Source: Phycisphaeraceae bacterium
GTDB taxonomy: Bacteria; Planctomycetota; Phycisphaerae; Phycisphaerales; Zrk34
Reading direction: 5' to 3'
DNA: 64,000 bases
NCBI GenBank assembly: GCA_028282805.1
Contig: JANQHD010000024.1
Span: 1 to 64,000 of the forward strand
Translations under genes and position numbers: made by a program
Part shown: positions 35,619 to 49,418 of the stretch, piece by piece
How positions within the stretch are numbered: the stretch's first letter is position 1
Layout of the letters: every line of letters starts with the position of its first letter
Notes under the pieces: model-generated
What the model saw: the letters and a program-made list of their open reading frames with translations, nothing else
Databases searched by the model: none
Told to the model about the DNA's origin: nothing

Positions 35619-36356
35619 TTATTCGCGCTCGCTGACCAGCACGTACGCGCAGCCGTTCGGCTCGGACCAGACCCGCACGTCGTACGCGTCGGCTCGCTCG
35701 ACGGTGTGCGTCGAATCGCCCAGCGCCATCGGCATGCGGAAGTCGCTCGGGCAGAACTGGTACAGCACGTGCAGCCGGCCCGCGTGCATCCAGTGCGTAC
35801 AGAGCACCGTGTGCCCCGCGAACCGGCATACCCGCGCTCCCTGCAACTCGTAGCCGAACTCGCCCGACAGGTCCGGCACGTCCACCGGCCAGTCCACGGT
35901 GTTGGCGAACTTGAGCTCGACCTCGTGCGGGTCGTGCGTCATCGCCTGCACGTAACTATGGCGCAGGTGGTTGTCCACGGCCAACTCAGCGATCTGGTCC
36001 ACGGTGTAGGCGTGGCCCGTGTTCACCACCCACACCGTCACGCCGATCGCCAGCGCCGCGGCCAGCGGGCCCGCCCACCTAGTGATGCGCCCCACCCACG
36101 GGCTGCGCAGCGGCGCCTCGTCGGGCATGCGCTTCAGCCGGTCGGCCAAGCCCCCCGGCACCTCGCCGTGACGCAGCGCCATACGCACGTCTTCGTCGAA
36201 CCGTTGCAGCGACAGCCACTCGGCTTCCGCCCATGCGCCGGCCGCGGTGACCTCGGCCATCACCGCCAGCCGCAGCGGGTTGTCCGGCGAAAGCGCCGCC
36301 ACCTCGCCCATGCGCTGGCGGAGCAACTCGACCTGTTCCTGGTTCATCTCGTTCAT
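35619..36356 (-). CDS. Probable anti-sigma factor (single-pass membrane protein)
   Basis: ATG 36356 is used; it lies 1 bp after the stop of the ECF sigma gene. The 245-aa protein has a helical cytoplasmic N-terminus (about 1-90), one transmembrane helix (AGPLAAALAIGVTVWVV) and an extracytoplasmic domain with several cysteines and aromatic strands (GARVCRFAGHTVLCTHW, LYQFCPSDF). The topology and gene pairing are those of anti-sigma factors, although no HxxxCxxC zinc anti-sigma motif is present. It probably holds the upstream sigma factor inactive until an envelope signal arrives; this is inferred from context. Confidence 0.7.
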   Translation of the reverse strand: MNEMNQEQVELLRQRMGEVAALSPDNPLRLAVMAEVTAAGAWAEAEWLSLQRFDEDVRMALRHGEVPGGLADRLKRMPDEAPLRSPWVGRITRWAGPLAAALAIGVTVWVVNTGHAYTVDQIAELAVDNHLRHSYVQAMTHDPHEVELKFANTVDWPVDVPDLSGEFGYELQGARVCRFAGHTVLCTHWMHAGRLHVLYQFCPSDFRMPMALGDSTHTVERADAYDVRVWSEPNGCAYVLVSERE

Positions 36357-36357
36357 G

Positions 36358-36945
36358 TCACGCACCTCGCAAACGCAGGTCCCGGGTGCCGCTGCTGTTT
36401 CGTTCGCTGGCCCGTTCCTGCTGGGCCAGGCTCGCACGCAGCGCCTGCCGCGCGCGGTGGATCCGGCTGAGTACCGTGCCCAACGGCACGCCCAAGCGCT
36501 CCGCCGCCTCCCGGCAACTCAAACCCTCGAGGAACACCATCAAGAACGGCGTGCGAAAACGCTCGTCCAAGTCGTCGAGCGCCAGTTGCAACGACTCGTG
36601 GCGCGTCATCCGTTCCAGCGTGCTCGCCCGGTCCTTGCCCGGGCGGTTCTCGATCGGTTCGGCCGGCGCCGTGGTCTTGACCTGTCGGCCCTTGTCCCGC
36701 AGCCAGTGCGAGTAGCGGTACCGCAAGATCTGAAACAGCCACGCCCGCGCCCGGCTCGGATCACGCAGCGACTTCATCGAACGCCACGCGTGATAAAAAG
36801 TCTCCTGCGTCAGGTCCTCGGCGATCTCGCCACGGCCGGTCATCCGCAGGGCGAAACGGTACAACTCCACCGAGTGGTCGGTCACCCAACGCTCGTAACG
36901 GGCGCGGGGGCTGGTATCCGTGTTATCGGGTTCTGGTGCGTTCAT
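36358..36945 (-). CDS. ECF-type RNA polymerase sigma factor
   Basis: This 195-aa protein starts at ATG 36945; an in-frame TTG lies nine bases upstream. Region 2 is LYRFALRMTGRGEIAEDLTQETFYHAW with RAWLFQILRYRYSHWLRDK, and region 4 is LDERFRTPFLMVFLEGLSCREAAERLGVPLGTVLSRIHRAR. A 30-residue tail rich in Arg and Ser follows. It is placed between a glycosyltransferase fusion (33 bp upstream) and the anti-sigma candidate (1 bp downstream). It might drive the whole minus-strand run, but no promoter match was tested. Confidence 0.92.
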   Translation of the reverse strand: MNAPEPDNTDTSPRARYERWVTDHSVELYRFALRMTGRGEIAEDLTQETFYHAWRSMKSLRDPSRARAWLFQILRYRYSHWLRDKGRQVKTTAPAEPIENRPGKDRASTLERMTRHESLQLALDDLDERFRTPFLMVFLEGLSCREAAERLGVPLGTVLSRIHRARQALRASLAQQERASERNSSGTRDLRLRGA

Positions 36946-36978
36946 GGCTCGCAAACGAAGTGCAACGGTGCCGGCGGT

Positions 36979-39720
36979 TTATTCCATGATATCTGCCAAA
37001 CCGTAGCGATCCGCGACCCACAGGTCGCTCGGCAGGTCCACATCGGGCAAGCTGGGCAATACACAGACGCTCAAACCGAGCTCCGCCGCCCGCGCCAGGG
37101 TCTGTTCGAGCACCCGTTCGCCACCCCAGGCAATGCCGCGGAACAGCGCGGGTTGTGGGCGTTTGAGCCCGACCAGGTAGTACCCGCCGTCGTGCGCCGG
37201 GCCGACGACCAGGTCGCGCCGCGACAGGCCACGTGCGGCCTGTTGAACAAGCGCCGCCGTCAACGCCGGGCAATCCGCGCCGACCGCGATCACCTTGCCG
37301 CAGCCCGAGGCGAAGGCCTCGTCGAACGCGCTGTCGAGCTTCCTGCCAAGGTCGCCTTCGCCCTGCGGTTGCAAGTTCAACTCGTCGCCGAACAGCTCAC
37401 GCATCTGACTCGCACCGCCGCCGGTGTACCGCACCTCGAGCGGCAGCGGGCGCAGGCGCTGCAACGCGTGGCGCGTCAACCGCGTTTGCAACTCGGCTGC
37501 GCCGCGTTCGCCCAGCGCCGAAATCATGCGTGTCTTGGTCTGCCCCGCCACCGGGTACCGCGTGAACAGCACCACGCGCAGCCGCTTGCGGCTTAGCGCC
37601 TCACGCGCATGCGCCGCCGCCTCGACCCCGATCGTGTACAAAATCTTCGTCCCCGCGCCCCACACCCCGCGCAGCGTGCCCGATATCTTCGACTTGCCGA
37701 TGCGGTTGCGGTAGGGCGTGGGCACCTCGAGCTGGCGCAGGCCGAACCGCGCGGCGCGGGCCTGCATCTGTACCGTCCACCCGTAGTTGCGGTCGTCCAT
37801 GCCGAGCTTATGCAGCGACGCGTAACGGATCGCACGGAACGGCCCCAGGTCCGTCGAACGCACCCGCCACACCGCGCCGAGCAGGGCGTTCGCCAGCCAG
37901 TTGCCGAAACGCTGCGTGGCGCTCAGCGCGCCGCGTTCGGCGGTGCCCCGCACGCGCGAGCCGATCACCAGGTCCGCCTCGCCCCGCGCAATCGGCCCGA
38001 CCAGGTCGCCCATCGTCTCGGGGTGATCGGAATAATCGCCGTCGCAGAACACGACGATGTCGGGTGCGTGTAACGCTCCGATGCCTTTCAGGCAAGCCGC
38101 GCCGTAACCGCGTTCGTCTTCGTGAACGACCCGTGCGCCGTGTTGTGCGGCGACCTCGGCGGTGCGGTCCGTCGAGCCGTTGTCGACGACAACGGTTTCG
38201 CCGACCCACGGCGGTATCGCGTCGAGTACCTTGCCGATGGCCCGCTCCTCGTTGAGCACCGGGATGATGACAGCGATGTTGAGATGTTCGATCTGCGATC
38301 TTCGAAGTGCGATCTTGCCCGTGTTTTCAGATCGCAGATCGCAGATTGCAGATCGTACATTCCGATGCTTCCACCACATCGCCACGAGCCCCGCGATCAC
38401 CGGCCCGTGTTCCAGCCACACGATCGAAGCGTGCGCGTGCTGCACGTAGTACAACGGCAGCAGGGCGCTGTATGCGATCAACGGCCAAACCGGCGCCAGC
38501 GCCACCAGCGGGGCGAACCACGTGTAGTACCACGGGAACTGCGTCGGGCTGATCATGAACGCGAACACCAGCACCGCCAGGCAGCGCACCGCCAGTTGCT
38601 CGGCACGCACGATGCGCCTCACGCTCAGCGCCAACGTAAACGCGACGACCAAGCCCACCGTCACGGCGCGCGTCATGTGCTTCGCGGCCCCTTCGTGCAG
38701 GCCGACCGACGAGCCGAGCTGTTGCCACATGTTCGCGTGCAGGCGGAACAGCGCCTCGTTGTTGTACCAGTAAGCCGCGAACTGAACCGTCCCCGAGTGG
38801 CCGCCGCCCGACAGCAGCATGGGCAGGTACAGAACGGTCACGCCGCCGACCAGCACGGCCGACGCTACGGCCAGTTCACGCCACCGCCCCCACGACGGGC
38901 GCAGCAACAGCGGCGCGAGCAACAACGGCCACGCCTTCGTGCCGATCGCCAACGCCAGCGCCACGGCGCACAACGCGGGTCGGCGTTTGATCGCCGCGAC
39001 GATCGCCGCCAGCGCGAACGCCGTGGGTACAAGGTCCATGTGCAGCGAGCCGAACACCTGTTGCACCACCAGCGGGTTGCACCAGTAGATCGCCACCCAC
39101 ACCAGCGGCTTGCCTATGTGGCGCAGCAGTGCCACCACCGACAAAGCGATCAAGCAGTCGAATAGCAAAAAAACAAACCGCAACCCCAGCGGCTGCCACG
39201 GCGCAAGCTCGTGCGCCACCGCGAAAACCGCTTGCGTGACCGGCGGGTAGATCGTGCGCAGGTGCGGGTGGTTGATCTGTCGCAGCGTGTCTTCGCCCGA
39301 CTTGGCCAATTCGTCAAGGGGCGGTGTGTGGTGCGCTTTGCTCGGTGCGTGGGCGTAAGGGTTTTCGCCCGTGGCGGTGACCGCGCCATCCCACAGGTAG
39401 CGGTGGTAGTCGTCTTCGGCGATCGGCAGGGCCGTGAACATCGCCAGTCGCATGCCCACGCCCGCGGCGATCAACACCAGCCACGCCGTGCGCGATGCGC
39501 CGAGCCGTTTGACGAGGTACACCCACAACGTGAACAACAACCCGGCCCCCATCACCAGCGCGGTCAGCCGACCGGCCGGCGGGGCCAGGCCCGGGCGCGT
39601 CTGCAGTTCGGGCGACAGGCGGGCCAACACGATGAACAACACCACGAGCCCGGCGCCCCCGAGGCAAAGCCCGGCGCGTTCGGCGATCGAGGCGGGTTGA
39701 TCCGATTGGTTCACCGGCAT
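36979..39720 (-). CDS. Three-domain fusion: GT87-like membrane glycosyltransferase + GT2 glycosyltransferase + DUF2064 (TIGR04282-like)
   Basis: This 913-aa protein starts at ATG 39720 (a GTG precedes it). Residues 1-455 form a polytopic GT-C/GT87-like domain with about ten helices and an acidic loop (PIAEDDYHRYLWDG) resembling the catalytic loop of polyprenyl-phosphate-dependent transferases. Residues about 456-478 are a linker encoded by a heptamer hairpin (SAICDLRSE). Residues 480-715 are a GT2 domain like dolichyl-phosphate glucosyl/mannosyltransferases (IPVLNEERAIGKVLDAIP, VVDNGSTDRT, FCDGDYSDHP). Residues 725-913 are DUF2064 (LFTRYPVAGQTKTRM, VGADCPAL, GPAHDGGYYLVGL). TIGRFAMs describes such GT2 and DUF2064 proteins as partners of the rSAM/Cys-rich family now called ArsS, which lies 18 bp upstream here. 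Confidence 0.85.
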   Translation of the reverse strand: MPVNQSDQPASIAERAGLCLGGAGLVVLFIVLARLSPELQTRPGLAPPAGRLTALVMGAGLLFTLWVYLVKRLGASRTAWLVLIAAGVGMRLAMFTALPIAEDDYHRYLWDGAVTATGENPYAHAPSKAHHTPPLDELAKSGEDTLRQINHPHLRTIYPPVTQAVFAVAHELAPWQPLGLRFVFLLFDCLIALSVVALLRHIGKPLVWVAIYWCNPLVVQQVFGSLHMDLVPTAFALAAIVAAIKRRPALCAVALALAIGTKAWPLLLAPLLLRPSWGRWRELAVASAVLVGGVTVLYLPMLLSGGGHSGTVQFAAYWYNNEALFRLHANMWQQLGSSVGLHEGAAKHMTRAVTVGLVVAFTLALSVRRIVRAEQLAVRCLAVLVFAFMISPTQFPWYYTWFAPLVALAPVWPLIAYSALLPLYYVQHAHASIVWLEHGPVIAGLVAMWWKHRNVRSAICDLRSENTGKIALRRSQIEHLNIAVIIPVLNEERAIGKVLDAIPPWVGETVVVDNGSTDRTAEVAAQHGARVVHEDERGYGAACLKGIGALHAPDIVVFCDGDYSDHPETMGDLVGPIARGEADLVIGSRVRGTAERGALSATQRFGNWLANALLGAVWRVRSTDLGPFRAIRYASLHKLGMDDRNYGWTVQMQARAARFGLRQLEVPTPYRNRIGKSKISGTLRGVWGAGTKILYTIGVEAAAHAREALSRKRLRVVLFTRYPVAGQTKTRMISALGERGAAELQTRLTRHALQRLRPLPLEVRYTGGGASQMRELFGDELNLQPQGEGDLGRKLDSAFDEAFASGCGKVIAVGADCPALTAALVQQAARGLSRRDLVVGPAHDGGYYLVGLKRPQPALFRGIAWGGERVLEQTLARAAELGLSVCVLPSLPDVDLPSDLWVADRYGLADIME
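38289..38355. repeat. Heptamer-built inverted repeat inside the glycosyltransferase fusion
   Basis: Four 7-bp units of CGATCTG type (38289-38316), an 11-bp spacer, then four units of CAGATCG type (38328-38355). The arms are inverted copies matching at 23 of 28 positions. The element is in frame and forms the interdomain linker. Confidence 0.85.
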
Positions 39721-39738
39721 CACACGACCAGTGTAACG

Positions 39739-40734
39739 TCAAGTCAGCGCCCCGCCGCACGACGAGCCGCAGCCGGCGGTGCAACCGAAGCAGTGGTCGC
39801 CGGTCGCGACGCGGCGGTTGGCGTGCGCCGCGGGGTCGAAGTCGCGGATGTGCCGCGCCGCGCCGCCGGTGGTGGTCATGCCCAGCGCGTAGTTGAAGTC
39901 GCAGTCGTGCAACAGCCCGTCGTAGCTCACGTGCACCTGGTGCCGACACATCAGCGGGCCGATCGTGGCGGGGTTGAACGCGTCGGCCAGCGTCGCCATG
40001 TACCGTTCGGCCAAACCGTCGCGGTGCAGGTCGTGGTGGAACCGGCCGATCGGCATGTTGGTGATGGTCAATAGGTTATTAAAACGGATGCCGAATCGCG
40101 CGTCGAGCTCACGCTTGTACGCCGCCTCCAATACGCCGGTTTCCGGCGGCAGCGACGGCCCGAGCGGATTGTACACCAGGTCCAGCGTCAACCCCTCGGC
40201 GACGCCGTAACCGACTGCGTTGAGCTTGCGGATCACGGCGACGGAATCTTCGTACACGTGCACCCCGCGCTGCTTGTTGACGTTGTCCGGCAGGTAACAC
40301 GGCAGCGACGCCACCAGGTGCACGCGGTGATCGGCGAAGAACGCGGGCAGGTCGGCGTACCCATCCTCGAGCATGATGGTCAGATTGGTCCGCACCATCA
40401 CGTGCAAACCGCGCGCAACGCCTTGCGCGACGAACCAGCGAAAGTGCGGGTTCATCTCCGGCGCACCGCCCGTGATGTCGAGCGTGGCGGCCCCGGCTCG
40501 CTCGGCGGCCTCGAGCACGAGCCGCATCGTCTGCCGGTCCATCTGCTCGGTTCGCTTCGGTGACGACTCGACGTGGCAGTGGTGGCACGCGAGGTTGCAC
40601 GTCAAGCCGACGTTGACCTGGAACGTGGCCAACGACCCTGCGTACAGGTCGTCGCCCGTCGCCCGCCGCACGGCGTCGTCGAAAGCGTTACGCCCCTCGA
40701 CGGTCAGCGTCGTGATGTCTTCGGTGATGGTCAT
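39739..40734 (-). CDS. arsS: ArsS-type radical SAM protein (arsenosugar biosynthesis)
   Basis: From ATG 40734 the protein is 331 aa. The radical SAM cluster is CNLACHHC (C46, C50, C53), followed by the glycine-rich DITGGAPEMNPHFRWFV. The C-terminus ends in the family's Cys-rich block (CFGCTAGCGSSCGGAL). In some organisms one cysteine of that block is selenocysteine; all are Cys codons here. ArsS attaches a 5'-deoxyadenosyl group to dimethylarsinous acid, the first committed step to arsenosugars. It starts 27 bp after the ArsM-type gene, its expected partner, and is followed by the glycosyltransferase fusion. Confidence 0.85.
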   Translation of the reverse strand: MTITEDITTLTVEGRNAFDDAVRRATGDDLYAGSLATFQVNVGLTCNLACHHCHVESSPKRTEQMDRQTMRLVLEAAERAGAATLDITGGAPEMNPHFRWFVAQGVARGLHVMVRTNLTIMLEDGYADLPAFFADHRVHLVASLPCYLPDNVNKQRGVHVYEDSVAVIRKLNAVGYGVAEGLTLDLVYNPLGPSLPPETGVLEAAYKRELDARFGIRFNNLLTITNMPIGRFHHDLHRDGLAERYMATLADAFNPATIGPLMCRHQVHVSYDGLLHDCDFNYALGMTTTGGAARHIRDFDPAAHANRRVATGDHCFGCTAGCGSSCGGALT

Positions 40735-40761
40735 GTCGTGGGCGCTAAGCCGCAAACGGCT

Positions 40762-41970
40762 TTAGCAGCAGTCGTCGTCGGCGCAGCAGCCGCCGCCTTC
40801 GGTCATGGTCAGCTTGTAGTCCTCGCCCTTGGTCTGCCTTGGGTGACGGATCGCCGCCCGCTTGCAGTCGAACTGCTCCGCCTTTTCCGCGGGCACTTCG
40901 TTCAACGGCGGCACGGCCTCGAACTGCGCCGCGTACGGCCCGTTGGGGTCGGTGTAGATGCGATACGTCTTGTCGCACACCGCCATGCGCCGGCCGCGGT
41001 AGAGCGTGTGGCCGTCGTCGTCGACCACTTGCTTGAACGGGCCCTTGTAGATCACCGCCTGGTTGCGCTCGAGGCACGGGCCCTCCTTGCCCTTGAACGC
41101 ACGCACGGTCATCGAGCGGAACTCGACGCCGTCGATCACGTGCCACGGCTCGTCCTGCCGCTCGAGGACCTCCACGCCGTACAGGCCCGCCTCGCGGAAC
41201 ATCTCTAAAAACTCGTCTTCCACGAACGCCCCGGCGATGCACCCCGACCACAGCTTCGGGTCGTTGCGGATCGCCTCGGTCGGCGGCTCGTCGCACACGA
41301 TGTCGCTGATAACCGCCCGCCCGCCGCGCCGCAGCACGCGGTGAATCTCCTTGAAAAGCTGCTTCTTCTGCTCCGGTCGCACCAGGTTCAACACGCAGTT
41401 GCTCACCACGACGTCGACCGACTCGGTCTCGATCAATGGTTGCGTCTGGCGCAGCTTCTCGCACTCGGCGTGGTAGGCGTCGAAGCCCTCCACGCTCGTC
41501 GCCGGGTGGTCGGCCAGCCAGGCGTCGGCCTTCTCCAAGTCGAGCGCCAAGTCCTGGATCTTGCCCTTGGCGAAGCGTGTGTTGGCGTAGCCGAGCTTGT
41601 CGGCCATCTCCTGCTGGTACTTGCGGGCGAGGGTGAGCATGGCGTCGTTGAAGTCGATGCCGATGACCTGCCCCGACGAGCCGACCTTCTGCGCGAGGAT
41701 GTAGCAGGCCTTACCCGCGCCGCTGCCGAGGTCGAGCACGGTGTCGCCGGCGTTGACGTACCGGCTCGGGTCGCCGCAGCCGTAGTCCTTGTCGATGATC
41801 TCCTGCGGGATCGCCTCGAGGTACTCGGCGTCGTAACTCACGGGGCAACACAGCGCCGGCTCGACGCTGTTGGCGCCCGCCGCGTAGCGGTCGCGCACCT
41901 CGTCTTCCACGTTCCAGCCCGCTTGCGTCAACGGTTGGCAACAGTCCTTGCCGTTGTTCGGTTCAGTCAC
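40762..41970 (-). CDS. arsM: ArsM-type arsenite S-adenosylmethionine methyltransferase
   Basis: This 402-aa protein starts at GTG 41970 with GGGAG upstream. The SAM-binding motif is VLDLGSGAGKACY (about 78-90). The arsenic-binding cysteines match ArsM: the ALCCPVSYD pair (C41/C42), C192 in SNCVLNLV and C244 in WSGCIAGA. The C-terminal 130 residues continue into a domain typical of the longer ArsM branch and end in GGGCCADDDCC, an extra metal-binding cysteine cluster. It methylates As(III) stepwise to mono-, di- and trimethyl forms. With arsS immediately downstream it more likely supplies dimethylarsenic for arsenosugar than serves only for detoxification. Confidence 0.9.
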   Translation of the reverse strand: MTEPNNGKDCCQPLTQAGWNVEDEVRDRYAAGANSVEPALCCPVSYDAEYLEAIPQEIIDKDYGCGDPSRYVNAGDTVLDLGSGAGKACYILAQKVGSSGQVIGIDFNDAMLTLARKYQQEMADKLGYANTRFAKGKIQDLALDLEKADAWLADHPATSVEGFDAYHAECEKLRQTQPLIETESVDVVVSNCVLNLVRPEQKKQLFKEIHRVLRRGGRAVISDIVCDEPPTEAIRNDPKLWSGCIAGAFVEDEFLEMFREAGLYGVEVLERQDEPWHVIDGVEFRSMTVRAFKGKEGPCLERNQAVIYKGPFKQVVDDDGHTLYRGRRMAVCDKTYRIYTDPNGPYAAQFEAVPPLNEVPAEKAEQFDCKRAAIRHPRQTKGEDYKLTMTEGGGCCADDDCC

Positions 41971-42045
41971 AGGTCAAACTCCCATTTGTTCGCTGCGGCA
42001 CCGATAGGGGTGTGCAGAGATTGTAGGCGTTTATTCGCCGGTGTG

Positions 42046-44670
42046 TCACACTTTTTGACCGTTAACCCGCAGCTCCGCCATCTGCACAGGTGACGCGGCC
42101 AACTTGTCGGTGCCGATCACGTCGCCGGTTTTTCGGTCGACCCTGCCAAAGGTCAGCACGCCGGTGGGGCAGCTCTGCACGCACGCCGAGCAGCGCACGC
42201 ACTGCGGGTCTTCCATGCCCAGGCCCTTGTTGGCGAAGTTCATGATGTCGATGCCCTGGTGGCAGACGCTGGTGCACACGTTGCACGAGATGCACTTCTT
42301 CTTGTCGGCGAGGATGCGGAACTGGCTGAACCGCGCATACAGGTGCATCAGCGCCGCCAGCGGGCAGGCGAACCGGCACCACACGCGCCCCGAGAAGTGG
42401 AAGTACAGACCGAAGCCGATGATCCCCGCGAACAGCAGGTCGATGAACCACGTGTAATTCAGGGCCGGCACGCCTTTGAGCAGGGCGGCGTACGCACTTT
42501 GCGCGAACGACTCGGGCCAGACCCAACCGATCACCCGGAACGCGAGGATGGCCAGGCAGACGGCGAGGAAGAACTGGCCGATGAGGTTCACCCGGTTCCA
42601 CACCGGGCCGTGTGGCATCTTGTGCCGGTGCGCATCGCCGAGCGTCTCGGCCATGCCGCCGCAAGAACAGATCCACCCGCAGTAGGCGCCCTTGCCCCAA
42701 CGCCGGATGATCAGGGGGATGATGACGAACGTCTGCACCAGGCTGATGATCAGCCACGTCCACATCGGCTGCGCGGTGAACACGTTCCACACGAACAGCG
42801 GCCACGCGAGGATGAACCCGAACGAACGCCAGTACTCCCGCCCGTGACCGTAGTCGGCCAACGGGAACAGCGCGTCGCCGACCGTCGAGTTGGGCTTCGT
42901 GTAGTCGGTCACGTAGATCGCGCCGGTGGTGGTGTTGTACGCGAGTCGGCCCTGGTCGCCGGCGCCGATGACCACGCCGGGCCAGCTTGCGCTGGGTTGG
43001 CCCAACGGCCAATCGCCGACCTGAGCGGGTAGTTGCGGCATCGCCGCGTCAGCCGATGGATCGCGGAGCGCGTCGGTGTACGCCCGCCACTGTCGGTTCT
43101 GATCGGCGTCAAGGTAGACGATCTGTTTCTGTTCGCCGAACGCGCCGTTGTTCCCGAGCAACGGGAAGACGATGTAAGGGAGCAGGAACAGGGGGATGAT
43201 CTGCACCGCCACCAACGTCCAGGTTTGTACCTTCACGTAAGGCGTCTTGCGGCGTTTGATGCGCCGGATGCCGAACACGAGCATGAGCAGGCAGTAAGCG
43301 GTCGAGTAGTAAAAGCCCGGCTCGCCCACGCTCACCTTCAGCACGCCGAGCAGGGTTGTGGGGTCGTTGAAGGAGGCGGCCACGCCGGCCCACCAGTCGG
43401 GCACGTTGTAGGGGAACCAGCCGTTGGCTTCGAACGCGTCGCCGATGCCGAGCCAGACGTCGGGCTTCTTCCAGTGGTAGATGAAGACGAACAGGGCGAG
43501 GATCGCGACCAGCCCCGCCCACCAGTGCGGCCCGCGGTCGCCGGTGATGTGCACACCACTTCGGCGGAAGAAGTCGAGCGGGGCCTCTCGGCCGATCATG
43601 GTGAACACCGCGTCGTTGGGCAGCGTCACCGCCCGCTTGTCTGCGTCGATCAGCGTGACGGTGTCGTCTTCGATCTGTTTGACGTTCGACGCCATCATCA
43701 GCGTCAGCTTGCCGGTGTGCGCCGGGTGCATGAACTGGCCCGAGGGCGTGGTGGTGCGGTCGCCGGAGACGGTCTCGACGTCGACCTCGGCGCCGGGGTT
43801 GGTGGACAGCTCGTTGATCTTTTCGATGTTTTCGGGCTTGGGCCGGGCGAACTGGGGTTTGCGGTAGCTGAGCGTGACGTTGGAGCCGCACATGGTCAGG
43901 GCGATCGCGGTCTCCATGGCGCTGTCGCCGCCGCCGACGATGAGGATGTTCTGGTCGCAGAAATCCTTGGGGTCGTGCAGGCGGTTGTAGACCTTGGGCT
44001 TGTCCTCGCCGCTCACGCCGAGCTTGCGGAAGTTGCCGGAGCGGCCGATGGCGACGACGACGCGGTGAGCCTTGATGATTTGCGATTTTCGATTGTCGAT
44101 TGCCGATTTGAGGTGGGTTTGTAGTTCGAACAGGCCGGCGGTGCGGGTGACTTTGTCGATGCGCGCGAGGGTGGGTTCGATGCCGGCTTGCAGGGTTTGT
44201 GCGTGCAGGTCATCGAGCAGGCCTTCCTTGATGTCGGATTGCTCGTGGAACTGAAGGTCGCCGGCCGGGGTCATGTCGGTCGGGTAGGTGTAGATCGGCT
44301 TGGCCTTGGGGAAGTTGACGATGGTGCTGAACGGTTCGGCGGCCTCGAAGAGCTCGAAGCTCAGGCCGTGTTTTTTCGCTTCGAGCGCGGCGGCGAAACC
44401 GGAGACGCCGCCGCCGATGATCGCCACGTCGAGCACTTCGTCGGCTTGGTTGCGTTTCTCGAACGCCGGGTCGACCACGATGGTCTTGATCGCGCGTGCG
44501 CCGGTGTCGGCGGAGAACTTGAGCAGCGGCACGCCCGTCAGGTCGCCGGTGATGTAGAGGCCCGGCACGTTGGTCGAGCCGTCGGCGTTGACCAGCGGCA
44601 GCTTCTCGACTGTGCCCGCCGGCCACTGCGTGTGCAGCCAGCGCGTGTATCGACGGAGTAGTCCAACCAT
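42046..44670 (-). CDS. FAD/NAD(P) oxidoreductase fused to a membrane polyferredoxin (NapH/NosR-like)
   Basis: ATG 44670 is used; a TTG lies further upstream. The 874-aa protein begins with a piece like the end of a thioredoxin reductase-type protein (GLYITGDLTGVPLLKFSADTG). Then come an FAD-binding motif (AIIGGGVSGFAAA, about 83-95) and an NAD(P) motif (ILIVGGGDSAMETA). Membrane helices start near residue 400. CGWICSCGG and the RFACPLAAL motif are NapH/NosR-type cysteines. Two 4Fe-4S motifs follow (CISCNVCTSVCHQG and CVRCSACVQSCPTG). It likely passes electrons from NAD(P)H through FAD and clusters across or along the membrane. In this context it could serve as reductant for the radical SAM or arsenic chemistry; that link is inferred. 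Confidence 0.8.
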   Translation of the reverse strand: MVGLLRRYTRWLHTQWPAGTVEKLPLVNADGSTNVPGLYITGDLTGVPLLKFSADTGARAIKTIVVDPAFEKRNQADEVLDVAIIGGGVSGFAAALEAKKHGLSFELFEAAEPFSTIVNFPKAKPIYTYPTDMTPAGDLQFHEQSDIKEGLLDDLHAQTLQAGIEPTLARIDKVTRTAGLFELQTHLKSAIDNRKSQIIKAHRVVVAIGRSGNFRKLGVSGEDKPKVYNRLHDPKDFCDQNILIVGGGDSAMETAIALTMCGSNVTLSYRKPQFARPKPENIEKINELSTNPGAEVDVETVSGDRTTTPSGQFMHPAHTGKLTLMMASNVKQIEDDTVTLIDADKRAVTLPNDAVFTMIGREAPLDFFRRSGVHITGDRGPHWWAGLVAILALFVFIYHWKKPDVWLGIGDAFEANGWFPYNVPDWWAGVAASFNDPTTLLGVLKVSVGEPGFYYSTAYCLLMLVFGIRRIKRRKTPYVKVQTWTLVAVQIIPLFLLPYIVFPLLGNNGAFGEQKQIVYLDADQNRQWRAYTDALRDPSADAAMPQLPAQVGDWPLGQPSASWPGVVIGAGDQGRLAYNTTTGAIYVTDYTKPNSTVGDALFPLADYGHGREYWRSFGFILAWPLFVWNVFTAQPMWTWLIISLVQTFVIIPLIIRRWGKGAYCGWICSCGGMAETLGDAHRHKMPHGPVWNRVNLIGQFFLAVCLAILAFRVIGWVWPESFAQSAYAALLKGVPALNYTWFIDLLFAGIIGFGLYFHFSGRVWCRFACPLAALMHLYARFSQFRILADKKKCISCNVCTSVCHQGIDIMNFANKGLGMEDPQCVRCSACVQSCPTGVLTFGRVDRKTGDVIGTDKLAASPVQMAELRVNGQKV
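44074..44108. repeat. Five tandem heptamers (NNCGATT type) inside the oxidoreductase fusion
   Basis: GATGATT, TGCGATT, TTCGATT, GTCGATT, GCCGATT follow without gaps. They encode SAIDNRKSQII on the minus strand, an insertion-like loop in the FAD domain (about residues 188-199). Confidence 0.8.
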
Positions 44671-44724
44671 GACCAACCTTTTTCGGCTAAACCCCAAGTC
44701 CCAACGATGCTCGGCACGGAGATT

Positions 44725-45585
44725 TTACGGCTTGTTCGCCTTGTCGTTCAATTCCCACGAGTAAGACAGGTAACCGATCGCGGGCTTGCGGCCCTCGAGT
44801 TCGTCGCGCTGCTCGGTCACGTACGCCAGCACGCTACCCGAGGTCTGCTCGAAGTCGCCGGCGTACCACTGGTACAACGCGGTCAGCTCCAGCTTGTTGC
44901 GCTCCGCGTCATAACGATACCAGCGCGGGTGCGTGTGCACGTATTCGGTCTGCGCGGCCAACTGCTTTTCCAGGTCCTCTTCGGTAAACGCCTCGTTGCG
45001 CAGCGGTGGGCAACTCTCGGCGGCGCACACCAGCGCGAAGTGGATGCGCGGCTCCTTGAAGTTCGGGCGGATCAGCTCGTGCTCGATCTGGTTCAGCGAG
45101 TACCGCTTGCCCGCGATCTGCCAACGCGCGTGATCCCAGCGTTTTTCCTTGGGGATGTCGCGGATCGATCGCAGTTCGCCGTCGTCGTAGTATTCGGCGA
45201 TCAGGCGCAGCGTAAAGGCGTTGTAGGCGTTGATCAGCAAAGTCAGTTTGCCATTGCGGGTCAGATCGTCGAACGGGGCGTCGGCGAGCTTGGCGATGTA
45301 CGCGTCGAGGTCGGCCGTATCTTTGACGATTGCGGCGTAGTCGACCCAGCCGGCGTCGTCGACGTGCTGGCGGACGATGTTGTGCAGCAGGCCGTGGTCG
45401 AACTCGGCGGGCCGCGTGGCCGGTGGGTCGGCGTGGGCTTCGGTCATGGCCACGGCGGGGGGGCCGAACCACTTGACGGCGAGGCCGTACAGCGCGTCGC
45501 GGCTTAGCATGCCGGCGGCGAACGCCACGATCAGCAGCACGCCGAGGCGCTTGGGCCATCTGTGTTTTGCGGTTTTTTCGTTCAC
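44725..45585 (-). CDS. DUF547 domain protein, membrane-anchored
   Basis: GTG 45585 is preferred because GGAG lies about 9 bp upstream; GTG 45612 adds nine residues. The 286-aa protein has an N-terminal signal anchor (LGVLLIVAFAAGMLS) and a DUF547 domain (about 65-280) with LTLLINAYNAFTLRLI, the LNQIEHELIRP block and FALVCAAESCPPLRNEAF. The function of DUF547 is unknown; the conserved Asn, His and Cys suggest an enzyme. It is separated by 54 bp from the reductase fusion, so it may be the first gene of the run down to the anti-sigma factor. Confidence 0.85.
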   Translation of the reverse strand: MNEKTAKHRWPKRLGVLLIVAFAAGMLSRDALYGLAVKWFGPPAVAMTEAHADPPATRPAEFDHGLLHNIVRQHVDDAGWVDYAAIVKDTADLDAYIAKLADAPFDDLTRNGKLTLLINAYNAFTLRLIAEYYDDGELRSIRDIPKEKRWDHARWQIAGKRYSLNQIEHELIRPNFKEPRIHFALVCAAESCPPLRNEAFTEEDLEKQLAAQTEYVHTHPRWYRYDAERNKLELTALYQWYAGDFEQTSGSVLAYVTEQRDELEGRKPAIGYLSYSWELNDKANKP

Positions 45586-45681
45586 GGTTTCGGCTCCGTC
45601 ACCGGTGTGCACGAGAGGGGGCGGGTTATTCCCTGAGCGATGGCATCGACAAAACTTGCGATGCGGGCGGCGGTGTGGCGG

Positions 45682-46398
45682 TTACGCCCGAGGTGTCGAA
45701 AACCGCCGGGCGAGGTTGTCGAGCACGGTGCGGATCAGGGGGGCGAGCCGGTCGTAGGCCGCGGTGTTTGAGCGCATCTGCTCGGCGGACTGGATGCCGG
45801 GCGCATCGACGAGTTCGTGGGCGCAATGGTGGATCAGCCGATCGGCGCTGGCGGGCGTGGTTTCGAGGTGGAATTGCAAGCCCAGCACGCGGCCTTCGTA
45901 GCTGAAGGCCTGGTTCACGCACGCGTCGGTCTGGGCCAGGTGCGCAGCGCCCTCGGGCAGGTCGAAGGTGTCGCCGTGCCAGTGGTAGGCGATGAACGTG
46001 TCAGGCAAGCCGGCAAACAAACCGCTGGCCCGGCCCGCTTCGGTGAGCGTCACGTCGAACCAGCCGATCTCTTTTTGGGTGTGCGGGTACACCGTTGCGC
46101 CCAACGCGTCGGCGATCAGTTGCGCACCGAGGCAGATGCCGACGACCGAACGGCCCGCGTCGATCGTGGCGCGGATGAAACGCTTTTCATCAACGAGCCA
46201 CGGGTGCGGGTCGACATCGCCCACGCTCATCGGCCCGCCCATGACCACCAGCAGGTCGAACGCATCGATCGCCGGGAGCGGTTGGTTCTCGTAGACCCGC
46301 GTGCCGGTCATCGGGTGGCCGTGTTCGTTGGCCCAGTCGGTGACGGCCGCGGGGTCTTCGAACGGCACGTGTTGCAGGTAGTGGATGCGCACGGCCAC
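45682..46398 (-). CDS. Class I glutamine amidotransferase (GMP synthase-like)
   Basis: This 238-aa protein starts at GTG 46398; GTG 46392 is an alternative. It carries a complete catalytic triad: the nucleophile Cys in VGICLGAQL, and the His and Glu in LQFHLE. LLVVMGGPMSVGD is the oxyanion strand. It is a stand-alone domain of the YfeJ/GMP synthase-like group, whose acceptor substrates are mostly unknown. It lies 96 bp from the DUF547 gene and may or may not be cotranscribed with it. Confidence 0.88.
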   Translation of the reverse strand: MAVRIHYLQHVPFEDPAAVTDWANEHGHPMTGTRVYENQPLPAIDAFDLLVVMGGPMSVGDVDPHPWLVDEKRFIRATIDAGRSVVGICLGAQLIADALGATVYPHTQKEIGWFDVTLTEAGRASGLFAGLPDTFIAYHWHGDTFDLPEGAAHLAQTDACVNQAFSYEGRVLGLQFHLETTPASADRLIHHCAHELVDAPGIQSAEQMRSNTAAYDRLAPLIRTVLDNLARRFSTPRA

Positions 46399-46451: not shown

Positions 46452-47894
46452 TCAGTTTTCCTTGACCGCGGCGACGATCTCTTCGACGGCCTCTTTGCCG
46501 TCGCTGAAGAACATCAGCGTGTTGTCGAGGGCGAACAGCGGGTTGGGGATGCCCGCGAAGCCCGGCGACAGCGAACGCTTGATCACCACGACGGTGCGGC
46601 ACTTGTCGACGTCGACGATGGGCATGCCCGCGATGGCCGAATCTTCCTCGCGCGCCACCGGGTTGACCACGTCGTTGGCCCCGAGCACGATCGCCATGTC
46701 GACGGTGTCGAGCGACGGGTTGATGTCGTCCGACTCGATCAGCTTCTCGTAGGGGATGTCGACCTCGGCCAGCAGCACGTTCATGTGACCGGGCATGCGG
46801 CCGGCCACCGGGTGCACCGCGAACTCGACGTTCACGTCGCGCGCCTCGAGCTCGTTGTACAGGTGTCGGACGGCGTGCTGCGCCTGCGCGACCGCCATGC
46901 CGTAGCCCGGCACGATCACGACGCGCTGGACGCCGTCGAGCATCATGCCGATCTCTTCGCCGCTGGTCGCCTTGATCTTGCCCGCGTAGATATCGTCGGC
47001 GCTGACGGACTTGGTCGCGTCGATCTTGCCGAAGATCACGTTGGCCAGCGAGCGGTTCATCGCCTTGCACATGATGGCCGTGAGGATCAGCCCCGACGCG
47101 CCGACCAGCGAACCGGCGATGATGAGCACGGTGTTGTTGATCACGAAGCCGGTCGCCGCCGCGGCGAGGCCCGAATAGCTGTTGAGCAGGGCGATGACCA
47201 CCGGCATGTCGGCCCCGCCGATCGGGCAGGTCAGCGTCACACCCAACACCAGCGCGATGATCACCAGCGGGATGTACCACCACACCGCGCCGCCCGGGTA
47301 CGCGATCACCAGCACGGCCATCGTAACCACGGCGACGCCGAGCACGGCGTTGAGCAACTGGTGGCCGGGCAGCACCCAGGGGTTCCAGAAGATCTTGAAC
47401 TCCTGCAACTTGCCGTAAGCGATGAACGAGCCGGAGAACGTCACCGCGCCGATCAGCCCGGCCAGCGCGGTGGCGATGAGCATCTGCGAGCCGGCGGCCT
47501 GCGTGGGGCCGGTGGCGGTCAGTTCCGCCCAGGCGACGAAGATCGACGCGCCGCCGCCGAAGCCGTTGAAGATGGCGACCATCTGCGGCATGGCGGTCAT
47601 CTGCACCTTGGTCGCGGCCACGACGCCGATCGCGCCGCCGACGGCCACGCCACCGATCACCAGGCCCCAGCCCAGCCCACCCAGCACGGCGGGCAGCGTG
47701 ACGACCACGGCGATGAACATGCCGACGGCGCTCATCAGGTTGCCGCGCACCGCGGTGCGCGGGTGGGTCAGGCCCTTGATGCCGAGGATGAACAACACCG
47801 ACGCCACGAGGTACGCGATCAGCGCCCACATGGGCAGGGCTTGTTCGGTGGATTCGACTAGAGCTAACAGCATTGGGTTCGTCACGTTCAGCAT
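46452..47894 (-). CDS. pntB: NAD(P) transhydrogenase, beta subunit
   Basis: This 480-aa protein matches PntB: nine predicted membrane helices, then the NADP-binding domain III from about residue 300. That domain contains RVVIVPGYGMAVAQAQH, FAVHPVAGRMPGHMNVLLAEVDIPY, the DINP motif and VLGANDVVNP. With PntAA and PntAB it uses the proton gradient to reduce NADP+ with NADH at the inner membrane. It starts 7 bp after pntAB. Confidence 0.95.
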   Translation of the reverse strand: MLNVTNPMLLALVESTEQALPMWALIAYLVASVLFILGIKGLTHPRTAVRGNLMSAVGMFIAVVVTLPAVLGGLGWGLVIGGVAVGGAIGVVAATKVQMTAMPQMVAIFNGFGGGASIFVAWAELTATGPTQAAGSQMLIATALAGLIGAVTFSGSFIAYGKLQEFKIFWNPWVLPGHQLLNAVLGVAVVTMAVLVIAYPGGAVWWYIPLVIIALVLGVTLTCPIGGADMPVVIALLNSYSGLAAAATGFVINNTVLIIAGSLVGASGLILTAIMCKAMNRSLANVIFGKIDATKSVSADDIYAGKIKATSGEEIGMMLDGVQRVVIVPGYGMAVAQAQHAVRHLYNELEARDVNVEFAVHPVAGRMPGHMNVLLAEVDIPYEKLIESDDINPSLDTVDMAIVLGANDVVNPVAREEDSAIAGMPIVDVDKCRTVVVIKRSLSPGFAGIPNPLFALDNTLMFFSDGKEAVEEIVAAVKEN

Positions 47895-47901
47895 CTCGAT
47901 A

Positions 47902-48183
47902 TCAGCCCTTCTTCCTGAACATGCCGAGCATGCGGTGGGTCACCATGTATCCGCCGACGACGTTGATGGTCGCCATCACCACGGCGATGGTGCCGAAGAT
48001 CGCGGCGGCGGTGGTCGCGTGTTGGCCGGCGGAGATCACCGCGCCAACGAGCGTGATGCCGCTGATCGCGTTCGAGCCGCTCATGAGCGGCGTGTGCAGC
48101 GTGGGCGGCACCTTCGTGATGATCTCGAAGCCGAGGAAGATGGCCAGCATGAGGATCGTTAACAGCAGGACGAGCAGTAACAT
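47902..48183 (-). CDS. pntAB: NAD(P) transhydrogenase, alpha subunit, membrane part
   Basis: This 93-aa protein has three helices, including ISGITLVGAVISAG and IFGTIAVVMATINVVGGY. It corresponds to the membrane part of PntA in E. coli and is encoded separately, as in Rhodospirillum. The start ATG shares one base with the pntAA stop (TGATG). Confidence 0.93.
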   Translation of the reverse strand: MLLLVLLLTILMLAIFLGFEIITKVPPTLHTPLMSGSNAISGITLVGAVISAGQHATTAAAIFGTIAVVMATINVVGGYMVTHRMLGMFRKKG

Positions 48184-49418
48184 CAGCTATCGCTCCCTTC
48201 CGCCGCTTGCGGCTTGGCGGGGTCGTCGGGTGCCGGGTCTCGGGTCTCGGGTTCCGGTGTTTCCAACGCCGGCAGGCCCATCAGGCCGCGGACCTGCGGG
48301 TTGACGACCTGGCCATCGCGGCAGACCAGGATGCCCGCGGTGATCTCGTTTTCGACCGGGTCGAGCACGAACTCGCCTTCCTTGTTCACCAACTCCTGCA
48401 TCAGCTTGACGATGTTGCCGGAATACATGGCGCTGGCGTCGGCGGCGACGTAGGAAGGGATGTTGTTGGTGCCGATGATGGTCACGCCGTGCTTGCGGAT
48501 GACCTGGCCCGGCTCGGTGGTCTCGACGTTGCCGCCGCGCTCGGCGGCGAGGTCGACGATGACGCTGCCCGGTTTCATGCGGGTGACCACGTCGTCGGTG
48601 ATCAGCACGGGGCTGCGTTTACCGGGGATCGCGGCGGTGGTGATGACCACGTCGGACTCGGCGACGGTGTCGGCCATCAGCGCCTGCTGCTTGCGCTTCT
48701 GGTCTTCGGTCTGCTCGGCCGCGTAGCCTCCCTCGCCGCTGGCGGACTCCGGCGGTTCGACGAACTTGGCGCCGAGCGACTCGACCTGTTCCTTGGTCTC
48801 CGGCCGCACGTCGATGGCGCTGACCTGTGCTCCGAGGCGTTTGGCGGTGGCGATGGCCTGGAGGCCCGCGACGCCGACGCCGACGATGAACACCTTGGCG
48901 GGCTTGAGGGTGCCCGCGGCGGTCATCATCATGGGGAAGATCTTGCCCAGCGCATCACCAGCCATGAGCACGGCCTTGTAGCCCACCAGGTTCGCCTGGC
49001 TGGACAGCACGTCCATGGCCTGGGCCCGGGTGATGCGGGGCACCAGCTCCAACGCCAGCAGCGTCAGGCCTCGCTCGGCGCAGGTCTGGTTCGCCTCGTG
49101 GGCGAGCAGGGGGTCGGCGTGGCCGATGAGCACGGCGCCGGGCTTGAGGTGCGCCAGGTCTTGCTGGCCTTGTTCCGGGTTTGCGCCGAGGCAGCGGACC
49201 TGGCAGACGATGTCCGCCTGGCCCAGGAGCGTCGCCCGGTCGTCGACCAGGTTGGCCCCGCGTTGCTCGTACTGCTCGTCCGTGTAGCCGGCGGCCAGGC
49301 CCGCGCCCCGTTGCACGGAGACGGTCAGGCCGAGCTTGGTCAGCATCGGCACGGACGCCGGCACGAGCGCAACACGCCGCTCATCGGCATACGTTTCAGT
49401 GGGGATAGCGATATGCAC
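48183..49418 (-). CDS. pntAA: NAD(P) transhydrogenase, alpha subunit, NAD-binding part
   Basis: This 411-aa protein starts at GTG 49418. It resembles alanine dehydrogenase/PntA domain I: PTETYADERRVALVP, IVGVGVAGLQAIATAKRLGAQVSAIDVR as the NAD motif, and ITTAAIPGKRSPVLI. The product binds NAD(H) and contacts PntB domain III during hydride transfer. The last 30 residues (TPEPETRDPAPDDPAKPQAA) are unusual and come from a heptamer array in the gene. The gene is divergent from sthA over 191 bp. Confidence 0.94.
   Translation of the reverse strand: MHIAIPTETYADERRVALVPASVPMLTKLGLTVSVQRGAGLAAGYTDEQYEQRGANLVDDRATLLGQADIVCQVRCLGANPEQGQQDLAHLKPGAVLIGHADPLLAHEANQTCAERGLTLLALELVPRITRAQAMDVLSSQANLVGYKAVLMAGDALGKIFPMMMTAAGTLKPAKVFIVGVGVAGLQAIATAKRLGAQVSAIDVRPETKEQVESLGAKFVEPPESASGEGGYAAEQTEDQKRKQQALMADTVAESDVVITTAAIPGKRSPVLITDDVVTRMKPGSVIVDLAAERGGNVETTEPGQVIRKHGVTIIGTNNIPSYVAADASAMYSGNIVKLMQELVNKEGEFVLDPVENEITAGILVCRDGQVVNPQVRGLMGLPALETPEPETRDPAPDDPAKPQAAEGSDS
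48228..48255. repeat. Four tandem heptamers (GGGTNNC) in the 3' end of pntAA
   Basis: GGGTGCC, GGGTCTC, GGGTCTC, GGGTTCC without gaps. They encode the PEPETRDPAP stretch near the PntAA C-terminus. Confidence 0.8.

Follow-up and report, generated by a model that had tools for sequence, protein, structure and literature searches.

Which genes, besides those for the arsenite methyltransferase ArsM and the radical SAM enzyme ArsS, belong to the arsenic pathway encoded in the window (the whole 64-kb stretch analysed here, out of a 3.9-Mb planctomycete genome)? The original prediction was of a candidate arsenosugar operon of seven minus-strand genes, encoding a DUF547 protein, an FAD-reductase/polyferredoxin, ArsM, ArsS, a GT87-GT2-DUF2064 fusion, an ECF sigma factor and an anti-sigma factor. 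An ORF and start-codon check confirmed all seven genes, each with coding-type GC3, together with their coordinates and the intergenic gaps of 54, 75, 27, 18, 33 and 1 bp. These gaps were reproduced with chosen starts (GTG 45585, ATG 44670, ATG 40734, codon 2 of the fusion, ATG 36945 and ATG 36356), and several of them shrink when longer start codons are taken. Domain searches upheld every label except that of the anti-sigma factor. The genes are real, but the predicted extent was cut short at its upstream end, where the same strand carries a gene for a class I glutamine amidotransferase-like protein (45682..46398; Pfam GATase, 8e-22) and then, at 46452-49418, the NAD(P) transhydrogenase genes pntB (beta subunit, 46452..47894; Pfam PNTB, 1e-172), pntAB (4TM subunit, 47902..48183; Pfam PNTB_4TM) and pntAA (alpha subunit part 1, 48183..49418; Pfam AlaDh_PNT). 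With the longest starts, the successive gaps are 69 bases between DUF547 and GATase, 53 between GATase and pntB, and 7 between pntB and pntAB, and pntAB and pntAA overlap by 1 base. Scanning the run for promoter and terminator patterns gave counts close to those in shuffled sequence.

The core of the run is formed by ArsM (40762..41970, minus strand; family profile and cysteines) and ArsS (39739..40755, minus strand; TIGR04167, 2e-124), and the diagnostic cysteines predicted for both were found residue by residue. ArsS scored 414.8 bits against the curated TIGR04167 cut-off of 300, and contains the radical SAM CxxxCxxC motif (C53, C57, C60) and a Cys-rich C-terminal tail (C322, C325, C329, C333; DUF3641, 6e-50). 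Comparison with solved ArsM revealed the arsenic-binding Cys 41/42, 65, 192 and 244 and the SAM fold, and ArsM fell below the cut-offs of both ArsM models, that for arsenosugar (NF038099, 121.5 bits, cut-off 400) and that for arsinothricin (NF040538, 337.5 bits, cut-off 500). As expected from family membership, ArsM would methylate arsenite to dimethylarsenic, onto which ArsS would transfer the 5'-deoxyadenosyl group of SAM. Adjacent, co-directional ArsM and TIGR04167 ArsS genes also characterize the cyanobacterial arsenosugar pathway, whose ArsS was studied by Cheng et al. 2021 (as cited in PMC12159101), whereas the window adds DUF547, the reductase, GT87, an AglJ-like GT2 and the upstream pnt genes. 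The arsinothricin and bisenarsan clusters likewise serve organoarsenical biosynthesis, the former with an ArsM-like enzyme, but arsinothricin involves a different radical SAM enzyme and bisenarsan none (PMC12159101). The gene run very probably builds arsenic-containing sugars. In the literature found, no pathway enzyme downstream of ArsS was established, and among the papers covered by our search none dealt with an arsS + arsM arsenosugar gene cluster.

The sugar steps after ArsS would fall to the GT87-GT2-DUF2064 fusion (36979..39723, minus strand), in which all three domains lie in one frame of 914 aa. Its DUF2064 domain belongs to TIGR04282 (200.3 bits, cut-off 134; 2e-59), one of the NCBIfam pair TIGR04282/TIGR04283 named "arsenosugar biosynthesis glycosyltransferases", which in the literature we found for TIGR04282 only as an annotation (PMC8801600). 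The window departs from this pair in that its GT2 domain fails TIGR04283 (39 bits, cut-off 182), being closer to AglJ and GpgS/DPMS types, and in that DUF2064 and GT2 are both fused to GT87. DUF2064, which resembles CofC and nucleotide-sugar transferases, would serve to activate the arseno-ribose; GT2 would then move the activated moiety onto an acceptor, either phosphoglycerol or polyprenyl phosphate, a role suggested by its closeness to glucosyl-3-phosphoglycerate synthases and dolichyl-phosphate-sugar synthases; and GT87, of the polyprenyl-phosphate-sugar dependent type, would complete the transfer at the membrane. Among the loci examined, the three-domain fusion was present only in the window's genome: in the sibling locus L121, read by eye, the GT87 gene ends where the overlapping ATG of a GT2-like frame lies. 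The GT87-GT2 junction is a linker of two short in-frame arrays of heptamer repeats (38283..38355, minus strand; repeat analysis). Such imperfect heptamers (AATCGGC/GATCTGC type) are dispersed through the genome, with 72 pattern matches and none in a reversed control; another in-frame tandem repeat lies within the reductase gene (44077-44109), and long arrays occupy the first bases of contigs C10 and C50.

To examine how widely these genes accompany ArsS, we took a census of ArsS neighbourhoods in 392 Planctomycetota genomes, 131 of which encode ArsS. Neighbours were labelled with profiles built on window or locus genes, with TVP38, MerA-like, PHO4 and other founders named by Pfam; clustering every ORF near ArsS had yielded mostly shadow ORFs, which is why the profiles were founded on real genes. 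Within 8 kb of 116 ArsS loci we found ArsM at 54, DUF2064 at 43, GT2 at 40, TVP38 (VTT) at 31, DUF547 at 30, a MerA-like flavoprotein at 29, GT87 at 12 and the reductase, hereafter RED, at 9, all of these counts being lower bounds, as many contigs stop near ArsS. The GT2 and DUF2064 proteins predicted as ArsS partners thus recur, as does DUF547 as a member of the extended cluster; and since DUF547 and RED both reappear beside arsS in other genomes, absence of a conserved neighbourhood is excluded. Domain fusions at these loci (GT2-DUF2064 in 23 cases, DUF547-TVP38 in 9, GT87-GT2 in 2, and ArsM-DUF2064 in 1) tie GT2 to DUF2064, GT87 to GT2 and DUF547 to TVP38 as pathway partners. The single ArsM-DUF2064 case (L156, 2762-4696) is a 645-aa frame, which links DUF2064 to arsenic methylation.

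RED (42046..44697, minus strand; Pyr_redox + NapH/Fer4) joins a flavin domain matching TrxR/YpdA/FNR folds to a NapH-like membrane polyferredoxin. Both domain kinds are familiar from TrxR-like ferredoxin-NADP reductases and NapH/MauN-type polyferredoxins (TIGR02163, 60 bits), but RED is one membrane polypeptide, scores far below the NapH cut-off, and has a flavin domain devoid of any conserved redox-active cysteine pair; its 13 invariant cysteines all lie in the membrane/ferredoxin part and none in the FAD domain. RED would be a membrane electron wire, leading from NAD(P)H through the TrxR/FNR-like flavin domain to iron-sulphur sites formed by the 13 cysteines, and would supply reducing power to the ArsS cluster or to As(V) intermediates. 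RED occurs in 43 of the 392 Planctomycetota genomes, and 34 of these 43 encode ArsS, compared with 97 of the 349 without RED (P 9e-11, uncorrected for kinship). The two genes lie within ~6 kb of each other in 12 of the 34 genomes having both, which belong to five families: seven are of one genus, in which 5-6 kb containing other genes separate ArsS from RED, two come from different genera of a second family, and three further families, including that of the window, contribute one each. On a RED tree of 88 rows, at least 5 changes are needed to explain linkage to ArsS and 15 to explain linkage to DUF547, in support of the predicted membrane reductase as part of the extended ArsS neighbourhood. 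Among 93 RED loci across phyla, DUF547 was the top neighbour (16/93), with ArsS, GT2 and GT87 also recurring, and 17 of 18 DUF547 genes beside RED were on the same strand, at a median gap of 81 bp.

The DUF547 protein (44725..45612, minus strand; 2e-25), the only one of its family found in the genome, scored 89.4 bits against PF04784 (gathering cut-off 27) and has an N-terminal membrane anchor, with the soluble domain predicted to lie outside the cytoplasm, where it would partner the redox step of RED. Its conserved residues are N128/Y130/N131, R189, H191, C196 and C201. An AlphaFold2 model had a pLDDT of 87, mostly above 95 in the core; comparison with solved structures (Foldseek, VIA-align) gave weak, tied matches only (best Z 4.4), and for that reason no structural relative is claimed. 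None of the papers covered by a literature search joined arsenosugar and DUF547, and the linkage described here provides a first functional hint for DUF547.

Planctomycete ArsS clusters containing DUF547, TVP38 and the MerA-like protein (L124, L125, L128, L146, L169 and others) share ArsM, ArsS, DUF547 and GT genes with the window, which differs from them in gene order and in having RED in place of TVP38 and the MerA-like protein. What is new here is that RED is never found beside this pair, although clusters with DUF547 otherwise contain it: at none of the ten ArsS loci that have RED was TVP38 or a MerA-like protein present, and among DUF547-bearing ArsS loci the pair occurred in 0 of 6 with RED versus 19 of 25 without (P 0.001, uncorrected for kinship). 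The family to which the window belongs itself contains both forms of the swap, the order being pnt-GATase-DUF547-RED-ArsM-ArsS-fusion in the window, pnt-GATase-DUF547-RED-ArsM-ArsS-GT87 in the sibling L121, and pnt-ArsM-ArsS-DUF547-TVP38-MerA-GT87-GT2/DUF2064 in L125 (genome G209). The sole TVP38-type match in the window's genome is weak and lies outside the ars cluster. Given this mutual exclusion and the swap, RED looks like an alternative redox module to the TVP38 and MerA-like pair. The MerA-like protein keeps a CxxxxC disulfide motif, and the two modules would use different electron outlets.

The GATase-like protein is 53% identical to its counterpart at the same position in L121. In four family members (the window, L121, L123 and L125), pntAA-pntAB-pntB immediately precede the ars genes, whereas no other ArsS locus examined has them there. 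With linkage confined to the family, we rejected a general role for pnt in the pathway; in these bacteria, the transhydrogenase may make more NADPH available.

Taken as a whole, the run is moderately likely to be an arsenosugar-type cluster with an ArsM/ArsS core, in which the fusion would carry out sugar steps, RED and DUF547 redox steps, and pnt NADPH supply, with the sigma pair a bystander. Within it, RED and DUF547 are good candidates for later pathway steps. We put forward more tentatively, as a possibility, that they form an unrecognised membrane module delivering electrons to arsenosugar biosynthesis, a non-orthologous displacement of the TVP38/MerA-like pair, and that GT2, GT87 and DUF2064 build, at the membrane, an arsenosugar linked to polyprenyl or phosphoglycerol. 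Against the favoured reading stand the sub-cut-off scores of ArsM and of GT2, the limitation of pnt linkage to one family, and the 9 of 43 Planctomycetota RED genomes without an ArsS match. The arsenic pathway might instead consist of ArsM and ArsS only, with DUF2064 and GT2, and RED with DUF547 be a membrane redox module of general function, present in Planctomycetota and other phyla and often located near ars genes since the two share a role in envelope lipid or thiol redox chemistry. Such a general module would account for the cross-phylum sample, in which ArsS was found in 31 of 50 RED genomes and had no match in 19; moreover, RED and DUF547 occur together without an ArsS match in the genomes of L027, L034, L039, L083 (Uabimicrobium, a complete genome) and L085, suggesting that their role may extend beyond arsenic. 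We consider this account somewhat unlikely in view of the repeated RED-ArsS linkage, the strong co-occurrence and the swap with the TVP38/MerA-like pair.

The nature of the product, which like the roles of enzymes acting after ArsS we infer from sequence, bears on a further alternative, namely another organoarsenical (an adenosyl- or glycosyl-arsenic antibiotic, or an arsenolipid) to which GT87/GT2 adds an unrelated sugar. The best-matching model for ArsM is the arsinothricin-type NF040538 (337 bits, cut-off 500), and GT87 and the AglJ-like GT2 lie outside the named TIGR04282/TIGR04283 pair, but ArsS at 415 bits to TIGR04167 and a DUF2064 domain over the TIGR04282 cut-off make such a product distinctly unlikely. 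As to regulation, the original prediction had the sigma pair control an envelope-responsive locus. The ECF sigma domain was confirmed (36358..36954, minus strand), but the anti-sigma label (35619..36437, minus strand) follows from position after the ECF gene, the protein having no Pfam or NCBIfam match and, in a simple hydropathy scan, no clear TM segment. That the pair is a dedicated regulator and the whole run one envelope-stress-responsive regulon would fit the shared strand and short gaps in the window, the ECF genes just upstream of ArsM at a few ArsS loci (L146, L234, L174, L139, L169) and, as the only hint from family homologues, the arrangement in G185, where the pair follows one of the two ars clusters on the same strand at a distance of ~11 kb. 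Yet ECF gene density near ArsS equals the background (0.0128 versus 0.0125 per kb in control loci, which have RED without ArsS). Homologues of the putative anti-sigma protein occur in four family members, with the pair inside the ars cluster in none seen, one of these contigs (in G394) being too short to judge; in G395 and G392 (78% complete) the pair is present beside another shared neighbour, with no ArsS match. A regulon of this kind is accordingly very improbable, and neither the regulatory nor the envelope-responsive part of the prediction is supported. We rejected the pair as part of the ars module on grounds of conservation; it is probably a passenger, a downstream bystander. Of the proposed ArsM/ArsS system with additional partners, the conserved partners thus stand, while the sigma pair and the envelope response are not supported.

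The recurring, mutually swapping ArsS neighbours (RED, TVP38/MerA-like, DUF547, GT87 and GT2-DUF2064) make up a short list for the steps after ArsS, turning the question of how the arsenosugar/arsenolipid pathway continues into one about specific, testable proteins.

A PiT-type phosphate transporter (PHO4) was present at 14 ArsS loci, in several of them between or beside ArsM and ArsS (L124, L145, L146, L166, L169, L173, L174, L209 and L234), where it possibly serves arsenate/phosphate uptake. One genome of the window's family, G185, encodes two different ArsS clusters (L123 and L124), one with pnt, and the other with PHO4 and a fatty-acid-hydroxylase-like gene.
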